This document shows, in pieces, positions 22,974 to 32,218 of a stretch of DNA of 64,000 nucleotides. The stretch's first letter is position 1; every line of letters starts with the position of its first letter. The notes under the pieces are model-generated. The model did no database searches and was not told the DNA's origin. It saw nothing but the letters and a program-made list of their open reading frames with translations. The DNA is from a bacterium (GTDB lineage Bacteria > Armatimonadota > UBA5829). The stretch spans positions 62,001-126,000 of the forward strand of contig JAJFVF010000022.1 in assembly GCA_021371935.1 (NCBI GenBank), read 5' to 3'. Position numbers and translations under genes: made by a program.

Positions 22974-24314
22974 TTAAACTTTCGTTTCCGAGCCTTTGAA
23001 CCTTTCGGGCAGCAAATCGCAGGATACGAGATCGTCCATATTCTCGCGCCGCGCCACCAGATCGGCATGCCCGTCCGCCACAAACACCACTGCCGGGCGT
23101 GTAAACCGGTTATAGTTGCTGGCCATAGAATGATTATACGCCCCCGTAGTCTGCACCGCCAGCAAATCGCCTGCCTTTGCCTCGGCCAGCATGATGTCTG
23201 TAATCAGATTATCGGTCTCGCAGTGTTTTCCACACACCGTATATGTGTCTGTCGGCTCATTGCCTGCACGGTTTGCCAGAATAGCTGAATACTGTGCGTC
23301 ATATAACGCAGGTCTGGGATTATCAGATAGACCGCCGTCCACAGGCAGGTATGTCCGTGTGCCTGGTTCTTCGGGTATATCCACCTGCTTGGGTGAGCCG
23401 ACTGTATAGATCGTCGTCCCGGCCTCGCCTACTATGGATCTCCCAGGCTCCAATATCAAGATCGGCTTATCGACTCCGCGCACTGCGCAGGCTGTAATTA
23501 CGCTTTCGCTGACAACTTTAGCGAACTCATCTATGCTGGGGGGATTGTCTTGCTCAACGTACCTTACTCCCAAACCGCCGCCTATATCCAAAACTTCAAT
23601 CAATGTGCCTGTCTCAGCCTTGACCTGTCTGATAAAGTCGATCATGATCGGGACGGAGTCGATGAACGGCGAAAGGTCAAAAAGCTGGCTGCCCACGTGG
23701 CAGTGTATGCCCTTCAAGACTATGCCATTACAGCCGAGCGCCTGCTTTATGGCTTTCATGGCCGAGCCGTCTCTGATATTCAAGCCGAACTTGCTGTCTT
23801 CCTGGCCTGTACTGATCAGTCTATGAGTGTGAGGATCGACACCCGGATTGCATCGCAGCAATACTTCTTGAACCTTGCCTGCATCTTCGCATATCGCGCT
23901 CAGCAGTTCGAGTTCAAGGAAGCTGTCGACCACTATATACTTTGCTCCGTAGTCGACGGCCATCTCAAGCTCATCGGCAGACTTGAAGTTGCCGTGGACC
24001 AGTACCCGCTCCATTGGGAAACCCGCGCATTTGGCCGTGTATAGCTCACCTGCACTTGCAACATCCAGCCACATACCCTCCTGGTCTGCCAGAGCGCACA
24101 TCGATGTCACTATAAACGCTTTGCTTGCATATGCTATATCCGCGCCGCCATATTCACGCGCAAACGCCTGCCTGTAGGCCCGGCATTTATCGCGTATCGA
24201 CTTCTCGTCCATTACATATAATGGCGTACCGAACTCAGCCGCCAGATCAACACAGTCACAGCCACCGATCTCGAGGTGATTGCGACTGTTTACCTTTTGT
24301 GAACCAAGCAACAT
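22974..24314 (-). CDS. lysA: Diaminopimelate decarboxylase
   Basis: Last step of lysine biosynthesis: PLP-dependent decarboxylation of meso-DAP. About 446 residues. AYASKAFIV holds the PLP-lysine near residue 65; GIHCHVGSQ near 205, EPGRSIVGEAG near 310 and the GAYNHSMASNYN C-terminal motif follow. The start is uncertain: ATG 24314 gives a family-like N-terminus, but AGGAAGGA is 15 bases away; TTG 24317 or ATG 24341 are alternatives. First gene of the run ending with trmFO. Confidence 0.93.
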   Translation of the reverse strand: MLLGSQKVNSRNHLEIGGCDCVDLAAEFGTPLYVMDEKSIRDKCRAYRQAFAREYGGADIAYASKAFIVTSMCALADQEGMWLDVASAGELYTAKCAGFPMERVLVHGNFKSADELEMAVDYGAKYIVVDSFLELELLSAICEDAGKVQEVLLRCNPGVDPHTHRLISTGQEDSKFGLNIRDGSAMKAIKQALGCNGIVLKGIHCHVGSQLFDLSPFIDSVPIMIDFIRQVKAETGTLIEVLDIGGGLGVRYVEQDNPPSIDEFAKVVSESVITACAVRGVDKPILILEPGRSIVGEAGTTIYTVGSPKQVDIPEEPGTRTYLPVDGGLSDNPRPALYDAQYSAILANRAGNEPTDTYTVCGKHCETDNLITDIMLAEAKAGDLLAVQTTGAYNHSMASNYNRFTRPAVVFVADGHADLVARRENMDDLVSCDLLPERFKGSETKV

Positions 24315-24345
24315 CAAAACAGATAGTCGTCCTTCCTGCATATAT

Positions 24346-24379
24346 AAAAAAGGAACCAGCCCCACATCAAAGCCGGTTC
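24346..24379 (-). terminator. Terminator-like hairpin in front of lysA
   Basis: On the minus strand GAACCGGC (24379-24372) pairs with GCTGGTTC (24360-24353, one G:T), followed by C and TTTTTT (24351-24346). It lies directly behind a promoter at 24387-24415, so it would be at the very 5' end of the lysA message, or it ends the array transcript from upstream. Confidence 0.55.
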
Positions 24380-24386
24380 AAGAAAT

Positions 24387-24415
24387 AATCTATCATACAA
24401 ACCAATACATGTCAA
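24387..24415 (-). promoter_or_regulatory. Sigma-70-type promoter of lysA operon
   Basis: Minus strand -35 TTGACA (24415-24410), 17-bp spacer, -10 TAGATT (24392-24387). The start would fall near 24380. Confidence 0.6.
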
Positions 24416-24520
24416 ACTTTGGGCATCTTGCAAGCAGAAACCCTCTCTTCATCACAGACAATCGCAATGACCTCGGTTGTGCTTGTGCCATCGGGTGCTA
24501 TCCTGGAAGCGCCGGATATG
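24412..24520 (-). pseudogene. Truncated Ig-like (Big_1-type) cassette fragment
   Basis: Minus-strand translation gives SRIAPDGTSTTEVIAIVCDEE then a stop after SACKMPKV. It matches SRIAPDGISTTEVTAIVFDEE near residues 496-516 of the 1046-residue lipoprotein encoded at 27124-30264. No start codon or SD is evident, and the homology breaks off in both directions. It lies just downstream of hairpin E1. Confidence 0.75.
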
Positions 24521-24523
24521 ATG

Positions 24524-24550
24524 ATGGGCCGGAAGCGGATTCCGGCCCAT
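24524..24550. repeat. GC-rich hairpin E, copy 1
   Basis: ATGGGCCGGAA GCGGA TTCCGGCCCAT. Identical over 27 bases to copy 3 (26605-26631); the next 28 bases differ at only two positions. It sits 11 bases after the stop of the 156-residue gene. Confidence 0.85.
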
Positions 24551-24560
24551 TGGGGTTCTG

Positions 24561-25031
24561 TTATTCTATTCTTGATTTGATGTCTTTGCGCTTGTATATG
24601 TCATATACGATCTTTCCGAGGTCATTTGATCGCATTGACTTCGAGATTACTGGAACACATTTAGGGTCAAAACATCCTATAAGAATGAATAATTTTTCTT
24701 TTTTATTCTTGTCAAGAATGGTAATTACAATCCTGTCTTTGTAATTGGATATACGCTCTATATCTTCCACTCGGATGCGCTTCATACTGTCAAGAAGCGC
24801 TGCGATGTAACGCATGTCAGATTCTGGATGGAGTTCAACTACCTTGCCTGATCGTATTATCGTTATCTTCTTGATTTCGGTAGCTGAGATACGGTTAATT
24901 GCCTTTATCTTTAGTTTTGCTGAAGCAGGGTCATCCCACTTTGTTCCTGTTCTAAGTGATGCCCGCACACAAAGATAAACAGCAACCGTTATTACCACAA
25001 GCATAGCTACTATGATTAGCCGATTTTTCAT
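24561..25031 (-). CDS. Small membrane-anchored protein (partner B of the array), unknown
   Basis: A 156-residue protein with one N-terminal transmembrane helix (MKNRLIIVAMLVVITVAVYLC) and a soluble ~125-residue domain ending KIVYDIYKRKD. The domain has ISATEIKKITIIRSGKVVEL then DMRYIAALLDSMKRI, and a charged beta-strand section, KDRIVITILDKNKKEK. It resembles the 157-residue product at 26643-27116 in size, single N-terminal anchor, order of beta and helical segments and the D-I-x-K-R-K tail, though identity is low. Both follow a caspase-like domain gene or fragment, so a cognate-partner role is inferred. Confidence 0.7.
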   Translation of the reverse strand: MKNRLIIVAMLVVITVAVYLCVRASLRTGTKWDDPASAKLKIKAINRISATEIKKITIIRSGKVVELHPESDMRYIAALLDSMKRIRVEDIERISNYKDRIVITILDKNKKEKLFILIGCFDPKCVPVISKSMRSNDLGKIVYDIYKRKDIKSRIE

Positions 25032-25044
25032 CTAGTGACTCCAA

Positions 25045-25272
25045 TTAATAAGTTAGCCATGTTACATATGTCCCTCCATATGCGTATAGAAAATTGTGCA
25101 TCCAACCATTGTAATTAATGCTGTTGTCTGCATAATATATTGCTTGATTGACATTGTATCCTTGTCCTAGATAACACCAAAATTCTTTTGTCCATGCTGT
25201 TCCACATGCTTGCAAACCTAAATACCATGGACTTCCGAGCGGGTAGTATTTTGTCAACCAGCCAATATAATG
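25045..25272 (-). pseudogene. C-terminal fragment of a caspase-like lipoprotein
   Basis: The frame opens right after hairpin E2 and reads YIGWLTKYYPLGSPWYLGLQ, then TAWTKEFWCYLGQGYNVNQA and stops after TYVTWLTY. This aligns with FIGWQGDFKPYG, GWVKGFWYYL and YGVSVYQANQQ at the end of the 1046-residue protein. The N-terminal domains and the catalytic His and Cys are missing. An intact stop and open frame suggest recent truncation or a domain cassette rather than old decay. Confidence 0.75.
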
Positions 25273-25293
25273 GGCCGGAAGAGAATTCCGGCC
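25273..25293. repeat. GC-rich hairpin E, copy 2
   Basis: GGCCGGAA GAGAA TTCCGGCC, the same stem as copies 1 and 3 with a different loop. It lies 30 bases after the stop of the DUF2330 gene and immediately before the caspase-like fragment. Confidence 0.8.
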
Positions 25294-25322
25294 TCATCGT
25301 ATGTTTACCTATCAATAAGTCA

Positions 25323-26249
25323 TTAAGGAAGTCTCTGGTTTTGTGGCAAGGGAGGAGGAGGCGAGTAAAAAGATATATTCCAGACCAGATCAGCAGTGCA
25401 ATCACTAGGTTCAAGTCTACAGCTAATCTGATGAAATATTTCCAGGCGAGCCGAACTCAGCTTGGCTAATGATGGATATTTAGTCTGCTTTGCATCCAAG
25501 GTAATCATTGGAATGTGAGCAATATTCGCTATTCTATCAGGTAAACCATCAATCTTAACCTCATGTTCTCTTTCCCCCTCAGGTAAAATCAAACTGATCG
25601 CTATATCAAATGCTTTCGGATTGGCTGAAGAAAGCCTTAATGGATAAACAGGCTTTCGAGATAAAAACTTGAGCTTTAGTGGGGTAAGGGTTCCTGATTG
25701 AAGGCCACTTTCTGCCGACTCCGGGTCATGGACTTTGCAGGCTACAAACGTCCAACCCTCTCTAGCATAACTGTCTACAGGTTCTGACGCTTTCTCAGGT
25801 AAATGATATGCATTTTCATCAAGCCACTGTATTAGAGCATTGCCATCTGTAGACTTCAATACACTGACATCATAGTCACCGGTTGTCTTTTGCTCCAGCA
25901 CATTAATCGGTGTTTCAACCGGTGAGACTGTTTTTCTAAAACTTAACAACAGCCTATCCAAATCTCCAAATATCTCTGCATCACCTTTTTCTACTCTAGG
26001 TCTGGACGGTACTGGGATTACCCATGCAAAGTTTTTTGCAGACCCCTCGTATCGTGGGCTGATGATAAGAGTCTCCTCACCTCTGTTGAAGTAGATTACG
26101 GCCTTTTGCTCGGGTTCATTAATTAATGTTTTTACTTGCTTCTCAAGCCATGCTATCCTCTGAGGCAGCATTACGCCGTCAGCGCTGGATGACGTGACAA
26201 AGCTAAGAAATAATACTCCTATTGTCATTATCAGTATAAATTTACGCAT
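25323..26249 (-). CDS. DUF2330-type exported protein
   Basis: A 308-residue secreted protein; signal peptide MRKFILIMTIGVLFLSFVTSSSA then DGVMLPQRIAW. AVIYFNRGEETLIISPRYEG and FAWVIPVPSRP are typical of DUF2330, a domain of unknown role in exported proteins. Many relatives keep a C-terminal transmembrane helix; this one ends in a proline-rich tail (SPPPPLPQNQ) instead. AAGGAG lies 9 bases before the ATG. It sits in the array between a truncated Ig-like fragment and hairpin E2. Confidence 0.8.
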   Translation of the reverse strand: MRKFILIMTIGVLFLSFVTSSSADGVMLPQRIAWLEKQVKTLINEPEQKAVIYFNRGEETLIISPRYEGSAKNFAWVIPVPSRPRVEKGDAEIFGDLDRLLLSFRKTVSPVETPINVLEQKTTGDYDVSVLKSTDGNALIQWLDENAYHLPEKASEPVDSYAREGWTFVACKVHDPESAESGLQSGTLTPLKLKFLSRKPVYPLRLSSANPKAFDIAISLILPEGEREHEVKIDGLPDRIANIAHIPMITLDAKQTKYPSLAKLSSARLEIFHQISCRLEPSDCTADLVWNISFYSPPPPLPQNQRLP

Positions 26250-26268
26250 GGTTAACAACTCCTTGGTA

Positions 26269-26604
26269 CTAGAACAGCGAGTTTGTCGTGTTACCCCAGA
26301 AACGCCAATTGTAGAACGGCGCAATCATATACAATGGTGGCTCAGGATCTCTTCTATAAGATATCAACTCATCGGGATTTGGGTCCATTGTATAGCTATA
26401 AGGATCATCCTCATCCGCATATTCCACATAGCATCCACCACCAAGGCTTCCAGCTTCTGCCCAGACAGTTCCTGTCTCATGATTGGTGCTTGATCTGATC
26501 GTCGCCTTCGCCTCACCGACATCATCTGTGACTGATTCATAGTCTACAATGGTTCCAACGTCTATACTCCAACTCATGCTATCCTGGAAGTGCCGGATAT
26601 GATT
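26269..26604 (-). pseudogene. Truncated Ig-like cassette fragment with a different tail
   Basis: Downstream of hairpin E3 the minus strand carries TSRIA in one frame, then jumps to WSIDVGTIVDYESVTDDVGE and IRSSTNHETGTVWAEAGS, almost identical to residues of the 1046-residue lipoprotein (WNIDVGDIVDSDAFTDDVGE; IRSSTNHETGTVWAEAGS). About 27 codons are deleted at the junction. After YADEDDP the sequence diverges fully into a short new tail ending YNWRFWGNTTNSLF and a stop. An ATG inside the hairpin could express it, but no SD is visible. Confidence 0.75.
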
Positions 26605-26631
26605 ATGGGCCGGAAGCGGATTCCGGCCCAT
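26605..26631. repeat. GC-rich hairpin E, copy 3
   Basis: ATGGGCCGGAA GCGGA TTCCGGCCCAT, 12 bases after the stop of the 157-residue gene and immediately before an Ig-like fragment, as in copy 1. Confidence 0.85.
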
Positions 26632-26642
26632 ACTGTGACATT

Positions 26643-27116
26643 CTATGGCTTACCTTTTCTTTTTATAATATCCTGGACAACGCGCTTAAACTCACCTGTC
26701 CTCGACCGAATATTCAAAGATGGATTTTTACCACCTTCATTTCCAAGCCAGCAAAGCATTATTCGCGTTTTTCCATCATTCATATGTATCCTTACTTCAT
26801 CGTATGCTGGTGGTTCGTCTCCATAGGGATTTATCTCCCATCTCGAAAACCAAAGGTCCTTTTTTATTACTGACATCAGTTTTTTAATGTCAGTTTTATC
26901 TCTGTTGTGATCCAACTCGGCAGTTCTATTACCCCACATCCACCATAAGTAGACAGATTCAATTTTGCTTACAGGAATATTAGAATATGCTTCCAGACTG
27001 GCCTTTTGAGAAATGTACTCAGGCCGACGGTGAGTCAACATCAAAATGCCAATGCTGAAACCAAGGAATATGATAATATAAATTACTATATTCTTTACCA
27101 CAGTAGCCTTTTTCAT
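26643..27116 (-). CDS. Small membrane-anchored protein (partner A of the array), unknown
   Basis: 157 residues: one N-terminal transmembrane helix (IVIYIIIFLGFSIGILML), then a soluble domain with IPVSKIESVYLWWMWGN, TDIKKLMSVIKKDLWFSRWE, YDEVRIHMNDGKTRIMLCWL and a tail RVVQDIIKRKGKP. It begins 7 bp after the stop of the large caspase-like lipoprotein and must be co-transcribed with it. No family recognised. Position and layout match the 156-residue gene at 24561, which follows a fragment of the same lipoprotein type. An inhibitor, immunity or anchoring partner is plausible but unproven. Confidence 0.72.
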   Translation of the reverse strand: MKKATVVKNIVIYIIIFLGFSIGILMLTHRRPEYISQKASLEAYSNIPVSKIESVYLWWMWGNRTAELDHNRDKTDIKKLMSVIKKDLWFSRWEINPYGDEPPAYDEVRIHMNDGKTRIMLCWLGNEGGKNPSLNIRSRTGEFKRVVQDIIKRKGKP

Positions 27117-27123
27117 AGCAGTT

Positions 27124-30100
27124 TTACTCCAAATAAGTAACCGTAGACTCCAAATCAGTATACATCCCTAGATTGCTGTGTATGGTGTTCCAATAAAGAG
27201 GATTATTGGAAGAGTTCAGTTGTTGATTGGCCTGATATACTGAGACACCATAGTAACGGCAAAGGTAATACCAAAAACCCTTAACCCAACCTAATCCATT
27301 GTACCAGCCGTAAGGTTTAAAATCACCTTGCCAACCAATGAATGTACAACCAGATAGGTCATCTCGACAGCCAAGTGCTCTTGCAATAGAACTGTCAGAG
27401 TGTTCAGGTGAGCCCATCGAATCGCATACACTAAAGTGAATTACTTTCAGCTTCCCTGCAACCAAATGTAAATCAGTAAATGCGGGTGTATTCTCGGGAT
27501 GTTCAGCCCAGCTATCAGTTCCATATACGCATGGCCAATCAGAGAATTGGACAGAACTCTGATAGGTGCCGCCATACCTTCGTAAATTTTCACCATGAGT
27601 ATTTAGGTAGAAATGATGTATGTTGCCCATACCTGAACCCAACCAGTAATCCATGCCATAGACTTCATCAGTAAATAAACCTACACGATCTCTGCTGGAT
27701 TCCCAATACATATCACAAACGTACACGGGTATAACTCCGCGCTTTTTGGCATTATCACCGACAGTCCTCATCTCCTTATAAGTTTCATGTTCGTCAATCC
27801 AGTCAAACCTGCTGACGACAGCCGCAACGAGTATCTCATCAGATCCAGTTCTGCTACTGACTGAAATAATAGCATACTCATTTGTGCCAGTAGAGGCTTC
27901 TCCATTCTGTCTTGCCGTAAGCTCTGCTGCTACTCGTTGAGCCATCGTCATTGATGACTGGTTTTCACCAGCGTCAAAAGATACCATATAAACATCTGAT
28001 TGATACTGTCCATCAACTTTTCCATCCCATGCTATATGCACCGATCCTGTTTGACTGCCTGTTGCAGACCAAACTGTTGTTTCAGTATCATCATCAGCAA
28101 TTGTAAAAATTCTAACCGTCCATGGAGACAGATTTGCATTGAAATCAAAAGTAAATCCAGTCTGGTTCGGATCATCATAGAGTAAATCTTGACAGTTCAT
28201 TCTTAGCTCAGATATTGGATTATTTACGACAATAGGCACTATATTGCTTAGCATTTCAGTGCCATCAATGTCTATCACCTTTGCGCAAATCATATGAGAG
28301 CCATTTGTTAACCAGGCCGTGTTGAATCCAGGAATCTTTGTGGATTCGTCAGTCTGGGTATATTCCGCAGAGCAAAATGTGCCACTTTCTTGACCATCAA
28401 CCAATAACACTTGCCTGCTAATGGTATCAGTGCCATCCTCTCTTCTGTTTTCTATTCTTACGTAGAATTGAATCACTCCGCAAACAGTCTGATTGCACGA
28501 TGGTTTCAATATGATTACAGACGGGTCTCCCTCATCCGCATATTCCACATAGCATCCACCGCTGAGGCTTCCAGCTTCTGCCCAGACAGTTCCTGTCTCA
28601 TGATTGGTGCTTGATCTGATCGTCGCCTTTGCCTCACCAACATCATCTGTAAAAGCGTCAGAATCGACTATGTCTCCAACATCTATATTCCAATACATGG
28701 GCTGGTTAGGAATACGCCTGCCCTCCTCGTCAAAGACAATGGCAGTGACTTCGGTCGTGCTGATTCCGTCCGGGGCAATCCTGGAGGTGTTCGCATAGAC
28801 ATAGATATCCATGTCTATGGCCGTCAGAGTGAAATTCTTAGTTGTCGTCTGGTTAGTAGTCACAGTCGCCTTCTCAGCGGCGTGAGTGTAGCCTGCAACA
28901 TCCACAGAGACCGTATGATCACCGGGTTTCACAGTCAGGCTGTATGTCCCGACTCCTGCTGCGTTGAGTGTGCATGTGGCAGTGCCGCCTGTCGAGTGAA
29001 CCCAGGCCGTGGCATTTGCCGCACTCGCACCTGCAGTGACTGTCCCGGAGATAGTGCCCGAGCCTGTGGAGTATGTGGGATAAGTCACATCTACCGGATA
29101 AACAACAGGTATACTGATCGATCCTGATGATTTGGTGGTGACGATACCGGTATCAGTCAGATATGTGCCCGGCTCGAAATACCCCAAAATATAAGACCTT
29201 ATCCCGATGCGATCATTTCCGGCATCAAGGTTGGAACCATCATCGATACAGGTATATGCATTTGACTCATCATCACCTATGCCGCTGTCGGTGACTTTGC
29301 CCCAAACTCTTACCAGCATACCGGTATTGTTTGCTCCGTTCGATGAGCCGATTGCATTGGTGAATGGACCCATCGCTCCTCCACCGAGGGCTTTATTGTT
29401 CATTCCTACGGGTGCGGGAAGAGTAAAGCCGTTGTCGGTGATCGTTAATTTTTCTGTATATGTGGTCTCATCATAGTCCGCCTGGAGAATTCTCTCGTCA
29501 CCCACAGTTGTGAGGGTTCCTTCTATATCGATGAGATCTCCCGAAGTGACTTCATAATTCATCGAATCCACACGTATTGCTCCCGTGCGGTCAGGCTCTT
29601 CTATACTTTTCTTTTCGTACACTGATACGATTGTCAGTCTGTCGCGGAGGTGGACATGTGTTCCATCGGGGAGCCATTTCAAGCTGTCGCGAGAGCCAGG
29701 AGCGGGAGGCGCAGGTTCTGATTCGGGGGAATCGTCCAATACCGGGAAGCCGCCACCATCCATCAGCGATGCACTCGAAAGACTTGTTCCCGCAAGCTGT
29801 GTAAGAGTTCGTTTGTCAGTCCATTCGGTTCCCGTGCCTTTGACCGGAGGGCAGAGCATGGGATGTCCGTCTGAGCTGCAATATACGGACACGCATGCCG
29901 GAGTTGTGATGATGACACGCTGCCTTATTGACTCACCATCTTTGGAGGTGCCGGCGACTGTGGCAAGTGTGCCTGTGACATCGACAGTCATACTGCTGTC
30001 TACCGGCAGGCTGAGTGAACTGATAACTATCAATCGAGGTGTCTTGGGTTTCGGCTCGAAATTCTCTTTAATGGCAAATGACTTGCCGCTTTTACCTCGC

Positions 30101-30264
30101 CAAACCACTTGTTCTGCAGTAAGGGTGACGGCTACACCGTCCGGCTGACTCAGGCATGCGCCGATTGTGCCGGGGTCACCGTCTTGGACTGTAGCGCCGC
30201 AGGACCCGAGAACAGACATACAGAGCAGCACCACAAACAACACCACATCGATACGCAATTTCAT
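27124..30264 (-). CDS. Multidomain lipoprotein with Ig-like and caspase-like (clan CD) domains
   Basis: 1046 residues. The N-terminus MKLRIDVVLFVVLLCMSVLG SC carries a lipobox-like LGSC. Residues ~25-390 look like tandem OB-like beta modules (VTGTLATVAG; IEGTLTTVGDERILQ). Residues ~400-485 form a carboxypeptidase-regulatory-like repeat (SGTVTAGASAANATAWV, GDHTVSVDVAGYTHAA). Residues ~493-578 are Big_1-type Ig (SRIAPDGISTTEVTAIVFDEE). From ~580 a further beta domain leads to a C-terminal peptidase-like region: HHFYLNTHGEN with His890-Gly and VIHFSVCDSMGS with Cys947, the hydrophobic-strand/HG and strand/C pattern of caspase-like clan CD peptidases, followed by TFIGWQGD and GWVKGFWYYL. The protease call is inference from this pattern. 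AAGGAGG lies 7 bases before the ATG. Confidence 0.72.
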   Translation of the reverse strand: MKLRIDVVLFVVLLCMSVLGSCGATVQDGDPGTIGACLSQPDGVAVTLTAEQVVWRGKSGKSFAIKENFEPKPKTPRLIVISSLSLPVDSSMTVDVTGTLATVAGTSKDGESIRQRVIITTPACVSVYCSSDGHPMLCPPVKGTGTEWTDKRTLTQLAGTSLSSASLMDGGGFPVLDDSPESEPAPPAPGSRDSLKWLPDGTHVHLRDRLTIVSVYEKKSIEEPDRTGAIRVDSMNYEVTSGDLIDIEGTLTTVGDERILQADYDETTYTEKLTITDNGFTLPAPVGMNNKALGGGAMGPFTNAIGSSNGANNTGMLVRVWGKVTDSGIGDDESNAYTCIDDGSNLDAGNDRIGIRSYILGYFEPGTYLTDTGIVTTKSSGSISIPVVYPVDVTYPTYSTGSGTISGTVTAGASAANATAWVHSTGGTATCTLNAAGVGTYSLTVKPGDHTVSVDVAGYTHAAEKATVTTNQTTTKNFTLTAIDMDIYVYANTSRIAPDGISTTEVTAIVFDEEGRRIPNQPMYWNIDVGDIVDSDAFTDDVGEAKATIRSSTNHETGTVWAEAGSLSGGCYVEYADEGDPSVIILKPSCNQTVCGVIQFYVRIENRREDGTDTISRQVLLVDGQESGTFCSAEYTQTDESTKIPGFNTAWLTNGSHMICAKVIDIDGTEMLSNIVPIVVNNPISELRMNCQDLLYDDPNQTGFTFDFNANLSPWTVRIFTIADDDTETTVWSATGSQTGSVHIAWDGKVDGQYQSDVYMVSFDAGENQSSMTMAQRVAAELTARQNGEASTGTNEYAIISVSSRTGSDEILVAAVVSRFDWIDEHETYKEMRTVGDNAKKRGVIPVYVCDMYWESSRDRVGLFTDEVYGMDYWLGSGMGNIHHFYLNTHGENLRRYGGTYQSSVQFSDWPCVYGTDSWAEHPENTPAFTDLHLVAGKLKVIHFSVCDSMGSPEHSDSSIARALGCRDDLSGCTFIGWQGDFKPYGWYNGLGWVKGFWYYLCRYYGVSVYQANQQLNSSNNPLYWNTIHSNLGMYTDLESTVTYLE

Positions 30265-30370: not shown

Positions 30371-32218
30371 TTATATGTTGATGTTTTCTGGTGGTAAAGT
30401 ATTGTTTGTGCGCTTGTTTATCTGCACGACGACCACAGCTGCATCGTCCTGCAAATCTCCACCGGCATGCCGCCTGGCGGATTCAACAATTCCTTGAGCC
30501 AGTGAATTCAGATCACGGTGACGACCTTTCATGAGGTATTGTTTCACACCCTCTTTGTCAAATTGCTCTCCACTCGCCGACCTGGCTTCCGTGATCCCAT
30601 CGGTTATCATAACCATAACATCGCCAGGCATGAGTTCCATGTTCGCTTCAGCATAGACGAACCCATCATAAAAACCAAGCCCTCCACCCTGCAGTTCCAG
30701 TTCCATAACTTTCCCATCAGCACCAATCACAAGCGGAGGTTCATGTCCTCCATTTGCATATGTGATGGTTCGGCTGGGCACATCCATTACGGCGAAAAAC
30801 GCAGTGAGCAACCCTACCTCACATGTCTCCTCTCTGCATAATGCCTGGTTGGCTAAGGTCATCACTACCGATGGACTCGGGTCCAAAAAAGCATAGCTGC
30901 GGATGGAATAACGTGCAGCAGCTACTCGTATCGCGGCTGGCAGACCCTTGCCGGCAACATCCCCGATAAGTATGCCGATCTTGCCGTCACCAACATCGAA
31001 AATGTCATAAAAATCGCCGCCAACGGCCGCCTCGTCAAGTGCCGGTTGATACTTCACTACAATTTTGCAGCCATCTATATTGTAACTGACCTGCGGCGGT
31101 ATTAGAGCTTGTTGGAGTATCTCCGCTATCCTGTGTTCTCGCTCGTATACTTCACGCCTCTGTTCCTCGAACGCTACCAGGTTGCCAATATCCCGAAAGA
31201 CCAGAGTCGCCCCGACAACCTCGTTATTGCAGTCTTTCACCGGTGCCGCGCTGACACCGGCAATAAAATCACAACCAGACACTGTGACAATCCTGTAGCG
31301 TTCATCGATTATATTCTCGCCATTCAGCGCACGTGTCAATGGGATTGTTTCAGGCGGCATCTCCTGCCCCTCTAGCGTATATCTACTTATCGATTTCGCC
31401 CATTCATTACTAGACACCTTTGATTTGACGCCCAGCAAATGACTTCCGGCGCTGTTAATCAAGCGTAAATTTCCTGCTGAGTCAAAGAATGCAACCCCAT
31501 CGCTCATCCCTGATATCAGGGACTCCATCTCATTCGCATGCTGCTCTGCGTTTGCACGAGCGTCAATCAGTTCTTTCTCCAGCTGCCTCTTGCGTTCGAT
31601 CTCAGCATTGAGTCTGTCTATTGTTTCCTGCAATTCTTCTACTCGCAGTGTATGAGGCCTTTCGTCGGTCTGCGTAACACATTTATACTCTGTCACAGAT
31701 ATTACCAGTCCGTAGAACTGGCCGGATGAACCTTTGAGCGAGGCTATGGTGCAGATGAGTTCAGTGTTAAATTGAGCAAGAACAGTGCTGATCCTGACAG
31801 GCGCTCCGGTATTGCGCACACATTCAAAAATAGCACTGTCATTGCTGCCGGAGTGAAAATCGAAATAGCTGTCATTGTTAAAATCAATCACAATACCAAA
31901 CAGTGCCTTATATGTGGGGTTAGCCCAAATTAGGTTATAATCGGCATCAATATAAGCAGTGGCACCGTTCAAAGAGGCTATTTGTCCCTTGGCACGTACG
32001 GCGGCATCAAGTGCACTAAAGACTTCTTCGCCAGACTGAAAAAGTAATGCAGGATCAATTACAATCGTATCCGAAGTCTCGCGTGAATGCTTTTCCAGGG
32101 CTTGCTTAAACGTGTCTACTACCTCGACCCTCACTCCTGATGGCGCCCTAAGGTAAATGCTGCTTGCCGCTCTGTCTCCGACTACCAATATTCGTTTTTT
32201 ATCCGCATAATGTGTCAT
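30371..32218 (-). CDS. PAS-domain SpoIIE/RsbU-type serine phosphatase
   Basis: A 615-residue soluble signalling phosphatase. An N-terminal receiver-like stretch (KRILVVGDRAASS) and a first PAS region (AYIDADYNLIWANPTY) come first, then a coiled coil (EELQETIDRLNAEIERKRQL) and a second PAS (GVAFFDSAGNLRLIN). The C-terminal PP2C/SpoIIE domain has VGGDFYDIF, GDVAGKGLPAA, MITDGITEAR and DDAAVVVV, covering the metal-binding aspartates. It likely dephosphorylates a STAS anti-anti-sigma factor; two STAS genes are in the window (46013 and 56431). A perfect -10 TATAAT lies at 32244-32239; no clear SD. Confidence 0.9.
   Translation of the reverse strand: MTHYADKKRILVVGDRAASSIYLRAPSGVRVEVVDTFKQALEKHSRETSDTIVIDPALLFQSGEEVFSALDAAVRAKGQIASLNGATAYIDADYNLIWANPTYKALFGIVIDFNNDSYFDFHSGSNDSAIFECVRNTGAPVRISTVLAQFNTELICTIASLKGSSGQFYGLVISVTEYKCVTQTDERPHTLRVEELQETIDRLNAEIERKRQLEKELIDARANAEQHANEMESLISGMSDGVAFFDSAGNLRLINSAGSHLLGVKSKVSSNEWAKSISRYTLEGQEMPPETIPLTRALNGENIIDERYRIVTVSGCDFIAGVSAAPVKDCNNEVVGATLVFRDIGNLVAFEEQRREVYEREHRIAEILQQALIPPQVSYNIDGCKIVVKYQPALDEAAVGGDFYDIFDVGDGKIGILIGDVAGKGLPAAIRVAAARYSIRSYAFLDPSPSVVMTLANQALCREETCEVGLLTAFFAVMDVPSRTITYANGGHEPPLVIGADGKVMELELQGGGLGFYDGFVYAEANMELMPGDVMVMITDGITEARSASGEQFDKEGVKQYLMKGRHRDLNSLAQGIVESARRHAGGDLQDDAAVVVVQINKRTNNTLPPENINI

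Follow-up and report, generated by a model that had tools for sequence, protein, structure and literature searches.

A candidate exported caspase-like effector with exchangeable C-terminal tails and adjoining anchored partner genes in an Armatimonadota genome

What could be the role of a large exported protein which ends in a caspase-like domain, is followed at once by the gene of a small membrane-anchored protein, and lies upstream of displaced pieces of a second such set? The question is raised by an array in a window of 64,000 nt (the whole stretch of DNA analysed here, on contig JAJFVF010000022.1) from a genome of the phylum Armatimonadota, 3.54 Mb in 22 contigs. The reading favoured here, with a probability of roughly 0.58, is that of an exported polymorphic protease effector whose cognate anti-protease (immunity) cassettes would be exchanged just after its Big_1 domain. 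An earlier note on this DNA had described the open reading frames (ORFs), His890-Gly891, Cys947, the single-pass proteins and the fragments, all of which were confirmed in their places. The effector and the small partners are:

27124-30264, minus strand: effector gene (ORF), 1046 aa, with signal peptide, N-terminal and surface modules, PEGA-like, Big_1 and Ig-like (immunoglobulin-like) parts, and the putative caspase-like C-terminal domain.
28480-28800, minus strand: Big_1 junction, residues 489-595, beyond which conservation against relatives falls; copies at 26409 and 24441.
27127-27897, minus strand: predicted caspase-like catalytic domain, about residues 790-1046, with His890-Gly at about 27597 and Cys947 at about 27426, placed by the invariant residues and by hhalign to Peptidase_C14.
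26643-27116, minus strand: s1, single-pass protein of 157 aa which accompanies the intact effector and is its predicted inhibitor; it starts 7 bp beyond the effector gene and is homologous to the L027 and L028 partners.
24561-25031, minus strand: s2, 156-aa single-pass partner without an intact effector, of the family of s1 and the G017 partners; model with a predicted local distance difference test score (pLDDT) of 75.

Relatives were compared with one genome per species (genomes are numbered G, loci L); most of their assemblies consisted of many contigs, and several loci lay at contig edges. When public genome contigs were scanned, no relative was found with the whole effector protein, and the tail alignment matched G017, an Armatimonadetes groundwater metagenome-assembled genome, and G003, which belongs to UBA5829, the same genus as the window genome. 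In all, 13 of 291 genomes had relatives of the tail: G017, with two loci, G003, G016 and G024 gave the clearer matches, and those in other families of the phylum were weaker.

The caspase-like nature of the tail was indicated by profile comparison. His, Gly and Cys were invariant across the alignment of 13 catalytic domains, which had 14-29% identity to that of the window. By hhalign, the profile of these 13 sequences was aligned with 12 Peptidase_C14 domains of the same phylum at 85% (P 6e-6, score 45.4), with His-Gly falling on His-Gly and Cys on Cys, and a six-row profile gave 90% (P 2e-6). The controls for the score of 45.4 reached at most 15.8 with 58 column-shuffled targets and 16.7 with the reversed target, and Peptidase_C25 (PF01364 members of the phylum) gave 5% or less. 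This supports a divergent caspase-like (Peptidase_C14-like) domain of distant kinship, and the clan-CD-like character suggested earlier for the tail is upheld at the level of profiles. Elsewhere in the same genome (G000:C2:220358-221461), a clear Peptidase_C25 (gingipain-type) domain was observed in an open frame of 1384 codons, which by profile is unrelated to the array.

The N-terminal part of the effector is common to the full-length relative in G016, and its Big_1 domain was identified by Pfam scan (PF02369, E 1e-9). The stretch of about 29120-29690 (residues about 195-380) was found again in numerous other proteins encoded by this genome and took most of the 20 own-genome matches to the effector, so it would be a surface module of general use rather than one peculiar to the system. 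The protein had been called a lipoprotein, which could not be maintained: the lipobox (LGSC) was not kept, and in the full-length relative at L050 the signal peptide lacks this cysteine. Thus exported is the safer label.

Conservation stopped close to the end of Big_1. Against G003, identity was about 50-73% through the end of Big_1 (65% within it), then 38%, 30% and 30% along the tail; against G016 it was 38-55% up to Big_1 and 23-29% afterwards, and the catalytic parts of the two could not be usefully aligned as a pair. The two copies in G017 were 98.2% identical over 164 nt of Big_1 (contig ends) and shared only short patches beyond that, and a 29-nt piece from the active-site region of copy a sits downstream of the partner of copy b. 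Three copies in G241 had 93-98% DNA identity before the tail, with diverged tails and partners (27-34%). A search of related genomes for the same junction with other tails, as the earlier note had proposed, therefore found them. Such a mosaic of junction and tail would be expected if tails were exchanged or diversified behind a junction that stays fixed, and would be in agreement with ongoing recombination at this point.

The pairing of tail and partner genes is evident from gene order. At 15 of the 15 catalytic loci examined in Armatimonadota, a gene for an exported or membrane-anchored protein was directly downstream and co-directional, overlapping or at most 37 bp away (21 or 93 bp at L051, depending on the start), and a hydrophobic stretch near the N-terminus was present in the partners at all 15. 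Paired copies thus exist in related genomes, and orphan copies were found too. The kinds of partner included the small protein of s1/s2 type, a family of about 300-350 aa, PepSY-like proteins and, once, a serpin.

When s1 and s2 were compared directly, there was hardly any match, and their kinship came out through their relatives: s2 matched both small partners of G017 at about E 1e-17 and s1 matched one of them at E 1e-8, which places both in one family. The model of s2 consisted of an anchor helix and a small alpha/beta domain, whose best solved match was 2mct, an uncharacterised protein of Ruminococcus gnavus (Z 6.8, root-mean-square deviation 3.1, 85 aligned; next Z 4.2), a match of a model which informs nothing about function. 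After the G016 tail stands a 295-aa protein, partner B, whose family was also present in G001, G002, G004, G011, G015 and G017; its first part aligned with the complete soluble region of the small partner (hhalign 56%, 106 columns, score 36.7 against a shuffled maximum of 20.0). PepSY-like or YcdB-like proteins are a recurrent kind of partner, being encoded right after the tail in G024 (two loci), G113, G084 and G075, and the partners in G029, G241 and G193 had no family match. A domain common to all partners was considered and was dropped for the G241 partners, the C-terminal domains of G024 and the PepSY-like proteins, which aligned unconvincingly.

In G003 the partner is a membrane-anchored serpin, 24 bp after the tail (PF00079, E 9e-116, whole profile), and a serpin is encoded in G004 too (PF00079, E 2.5e-111, whole profile), both matches being above the Pfam cut-off. 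The sequence EEGTEAAAAT was read in both at the hinge of the reactive loop, and we take it to be an inhibitory hinge. Of all single observations, this substitution of a serpin for the usual partner points most clearly to an inhibitory role of the partner. The catalytic gene of G003 contains an assembly gap, so its intactness is not certain. The serpin was rejected as a general mark of the system, the serpins checked in other genomes of the class having no system profile match nearby. At L154 and L155 (G006 and G010), two other serpin genes of the class were observed between rpmA-like and obg-like genes, a conserved context away from catalytic and partner genes.

Downstream of s1, the remainder of the array is made of displaced pieces together with s2:

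26269-26578, minus strand: displaced Big_1 fragment joined to a different tail, tail B (ends MIAPFYNWRFWGN..), with 88% DNA identity between 26409-26578 and 28530-28699.
25323-26249, minus strand: DUF2330 gene immediately downstream of the tail B end (PF10092, E 7.5e-34).
25045-25290, minus strand: remnant of the C-terminal end of another caspase-like tail, lacking both His and Cys, by blastp and profile match.
24412-24515, minus strand: displaced fragment, first half of Big_1, with 78% DNA identity between 24441-24507 and 28721-28785.

The two junction fragments, and a different tail on one of them, had been noticed before; the fragments were verified by these identities to the effector, and the different tail is on the one at 26269. 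The same tail B end was present in G017, G001 and G002. A truncated DUF2330 gene closes the tail B cassettes of G017 (L027:1316-1891), where other genomes carry partner B, and the DUF2330 protein may be an alternative partner of uncertain role. Tail B is plausibly the end of a tail of the G016 type, with the same partner family, their direct similarity being weak (best z 3.4; 3 of 300 shuffles equally good). The fragment from 25045 to about 25290 matched the effector C-terminus by blastp at E 3e-8 (38% over 52 aa), and s2 follows it by 13 bp. The term array thus holds in so far as one intact second partner gene exists, the displaced units in the window being otherwise decayed remnants.

Partner genes without a catalytic gene were found in several related genomes. 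A tail B end comes before each of the two orphan partner B genes of G017, and also before partner B in G002. In G001, Big_1 is fused to the tail B end and followed by partner B, a fragment of the small partner and another Big_1 fragment. The array in G004 has no catalytic gene; the genes of partner B, the serpin and one small single-pass protein stand next to each other there, membership of the last in the s1/s2 family not being demonstrable. For the two orphan partner B genes of G017, the ratio of nonsynonymous to synonymous substitution (dN/dS) was about 0.23 (dN 0.28, dS 1.25), which fits a retained function, though part of this apparent selection may predate orphaning. Two further observations were made beside these arrays. 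In G015 (L098:3442-5281), two tandem partner-B-like genes with signal sequences have no recognisable tail remnant upstream, and adjoining the orphan array of G001 (L072:11676-13340) there is a phage-type gene with a Mu F domain (PF04233) and an ADP-ribosyltransferase domain (PF03496), an arrangement which is the layout of MuF polymorphic toxins.

According to the favoured reading, the conserved N-terminal part, from signal peptide to Big_1, would carry an exchangeable C-terminal caspase-like cysteine protease, which would be displayed or released after export of the effector. The gene directly downstream would provide a membrane-anchored or exported protein that blocks the protease in the periplasm or at the surface, protecting the producer and its kin. 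New units of tail and partner would enter by recombination near the end of Big_1, and displaced units would lose most of the catalytic tail and could keep the partner gene, which would then protect against relatives still using that tail. The locus has the shared junction with variable C-termini, the downstream partner, and the standalone cassettes or orphans (window, G001, G002, G004, G017) of polymorphic toxin and immunity loci. The earlier proposal of a protease-like effector and partner array recombining through the junction is supported by the paired and orphan copies, the profile match and the junction with other tails. Antagonism between relatives is the best reading of the partner-only arrays and variable tails.

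Several points weigh against it. The catalytic domain was matched by no Pfam, NCBIfam or PDB family profile; it fell below the Pfam PF00656 model, and the PDB profile search with the catalytic alignment was empty. The fold was not confirmed by the AlphaFold model of the tail (mean pLDDT 50.7, below 50 over most of the catalytic part), with which fold searches matched Ig-like folds, in the Ig part, and nothing else, so no claim of fold rests on it. No recognisable part for contact-dependent delivery was present in the effector. Furthermore, the tail fragments of the window are decayed, every PepSY match was below the Pfam cut-off, a serpin beside a catalytic gene was seen once, other serpins checked in the class lying elsewhere, and the toxicity of the tail is a prediction.

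A serious rival is a protease exported for nutrition or for turnover of matrix or envelope, together with an inhibitor for self-protection, as in the staphopain-staphostatin or Bacteroides C10 operons, the tails having diverged by ordinary duplication and the fragments being decaying duplicates and neither weapons nor immunity cassettes. It is possible, at well below even odds. The closest precedents based on experiment, co-transcribed protease and inhibitor genes with some membrane-associated inhibitors (PMC3462683), are of this kind, the decayed fragments suit it, and it needs neither the delivery nor the toxicity that we infer for an antagonistic effector. However, it leaves unexplained why junction conservation stops sharply after Big_1 and why partner genes are kept without a protease in several genomes, once with three kinds in a row, and under the dN/dS value of the G017 orphans.

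The partner might instead anchor the caspase-like protein to the membrane, act as its chaperone or activator, or be its substrate, the two forming a module for signalling or processing at the surface. Single-pass anchoring and closely coupled genes would go with any obligate partner, PepSY-like proteins can serve as folding propeptides as well as inhibitors, and 2mct, the solved match of s2, has no known function. This is improbable in view of the full-length serpin, a dedicated protease-inhibitor fold, which replaces the partner in G003 and stands among partners in G004, and of the survival of partners without the enzyme. Finally, a surface adhesin with a variable tip, in which His-Gly and Cys would be structural and the C-terminal domain no protease, would accord with the lack of a database family match and the low-confidence structure model, but is very hard to reconcile with His, Gly and Cys being invariant at such low overall identity and in register in a significant Peptidase_C14 profile match.

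As to the surroundings, the array occupies 30264-24412 on the minus strand, flanked by a SpoIIE/PAS-type gene (30371-32218) on one side and a diaminopimelate-decarboxylase-type gene (22974-24365) on the other. Its order is effector, s1, hairpin, Big_1 fragment with tail B, DUF2330 gene, hairpin, fragment of the caspase-like tail, s2, hairpin and last Big_1 fragment. Viral contigs and phages gave no match, and plasmids gave one weak match, mostly to the Ig part, so there was no sign of mobile carriage. The hairpins are:

26607-26629, plus strand: hairpin 1, GGGCCGGAA..TTCCGGCCC, after s1, by sequence search.
25273-25293, plus strand: hairpin 2, after the DUF2330 gene, by sequence search.
24526-24548, plus strand: hairpin 3, after s2, by sequence search.
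24353-24379, minus strand: terminator-like hairpin with T-run at the array end, by consensus scan.

Hairpins before the junction fragments had been reported; they are real, with the correction that three copies exist (24526, 25273, 26607) and not two. In the whole window genome, a search for the 25-nt hairpin with at most 3 mismatches gave these three copies only, and among five genomes of the genus it occurred 5 times, the other two copies being in the G004 partner array; each of the five directly follows an array gene. An ordinary terminator was discarded as explanation, just the copy at 25273 passing the consensus scan on the coding strand. Candidate roles of the hairpin are those of a terminator, of an element for RNA stability or of a site for recombination. 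A bolder proposal, kin discrimination in Armatimonadota by exported caspase-like proteases swapped at Big_1, with libraries of anchored inhibitors, serpin included, as immunity and this cassette-specific hairpin, absent from the rest of the genome, marking or promoting exchange, is tentative and rather doubtful as a whole.

Among known systems, CdiA and Rhs loci carry orphan modules in which displaced units of junction, tail and partner lie downstream of the main gene, with orphan immunity genes. The present array shares the displaced units and the orphan partner genes. It differs in that the effector has no two-partner secretion (TPS) domain or RHS repeats by Pfam scan, with no CdiB-like gene noticed among the neighbours, and in that the displaced tails are mostly reduced to their last 20-75 residues.

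Caspase-like C-terminal toxin domains (Tox-Caspase) and mixed immunity loci are known in polymorphic toxins (Zhang et al. 2012, PMC3482391). As there, a conserved export part carries an exchangeable C-terminal caspase-like domain with an adjacent partner gene, and both standalone cassettes and poly-immunity loci of mixed content occur. In contrast, immunity proteins there are nearly all cytoplasmic, whereas the partners here are membrane-anchored or exported and include serpins and PepSY-like proteins, and the delivery part is unrelated to those listed; serpins have no mention in the text of PMC3482391 used here.

An exported cysteine protease with an adjacent inhibitor gene, some of the inhibitors being membrane-associated, is also found in staphopain-staphostatin, SpeB-Spi and the Bacteroides C10/staphostatin-like operons (PMC3462683), but those proteases are papain-like and not caspase-like, and neither a shared junction with swapped tails nor partner-only arrays are described there. 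The KLIKK proteases of Tannerella (PMC4404884) likewise have a near-identical region on different catalytic domains, each beside a small lipoprotein gene, and their species also has a serpin, miropin. Unlike here, that region is C-terminal and ends in KLIKK (the effector ends in STVTYLE), the catalytic domains are of several classes, and the lipoproteins lie upstream and are mutually without sequence similarity (PMC4404884).

The system had been called undescribed. This cannot stand for caspase-type C-terminal domains of polymorphic toxins, known since 2012 (PMC3482391), and it stands for the serpin partners and the Armatimonadota family, in that no description of serpins as immunity partners, or of this family in Armatimonadota, was found in open-licence papers. 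If the favoured reading is true, the array would represent a branch of polymorphic toxins with proteases acting at the surface or in the periplasm, in a phylum with few studied systems, and some bacterial serpins would gain a concrete role as immunity proteins. It would also offer caspase-like enzymes naturally paired with small inhibitors anchored in the membrane, the latter of an uncharacterised type, and the partner-only arrays would allow a direct test of whether an orphan inhibitor gives protection from tails that other strains carry.

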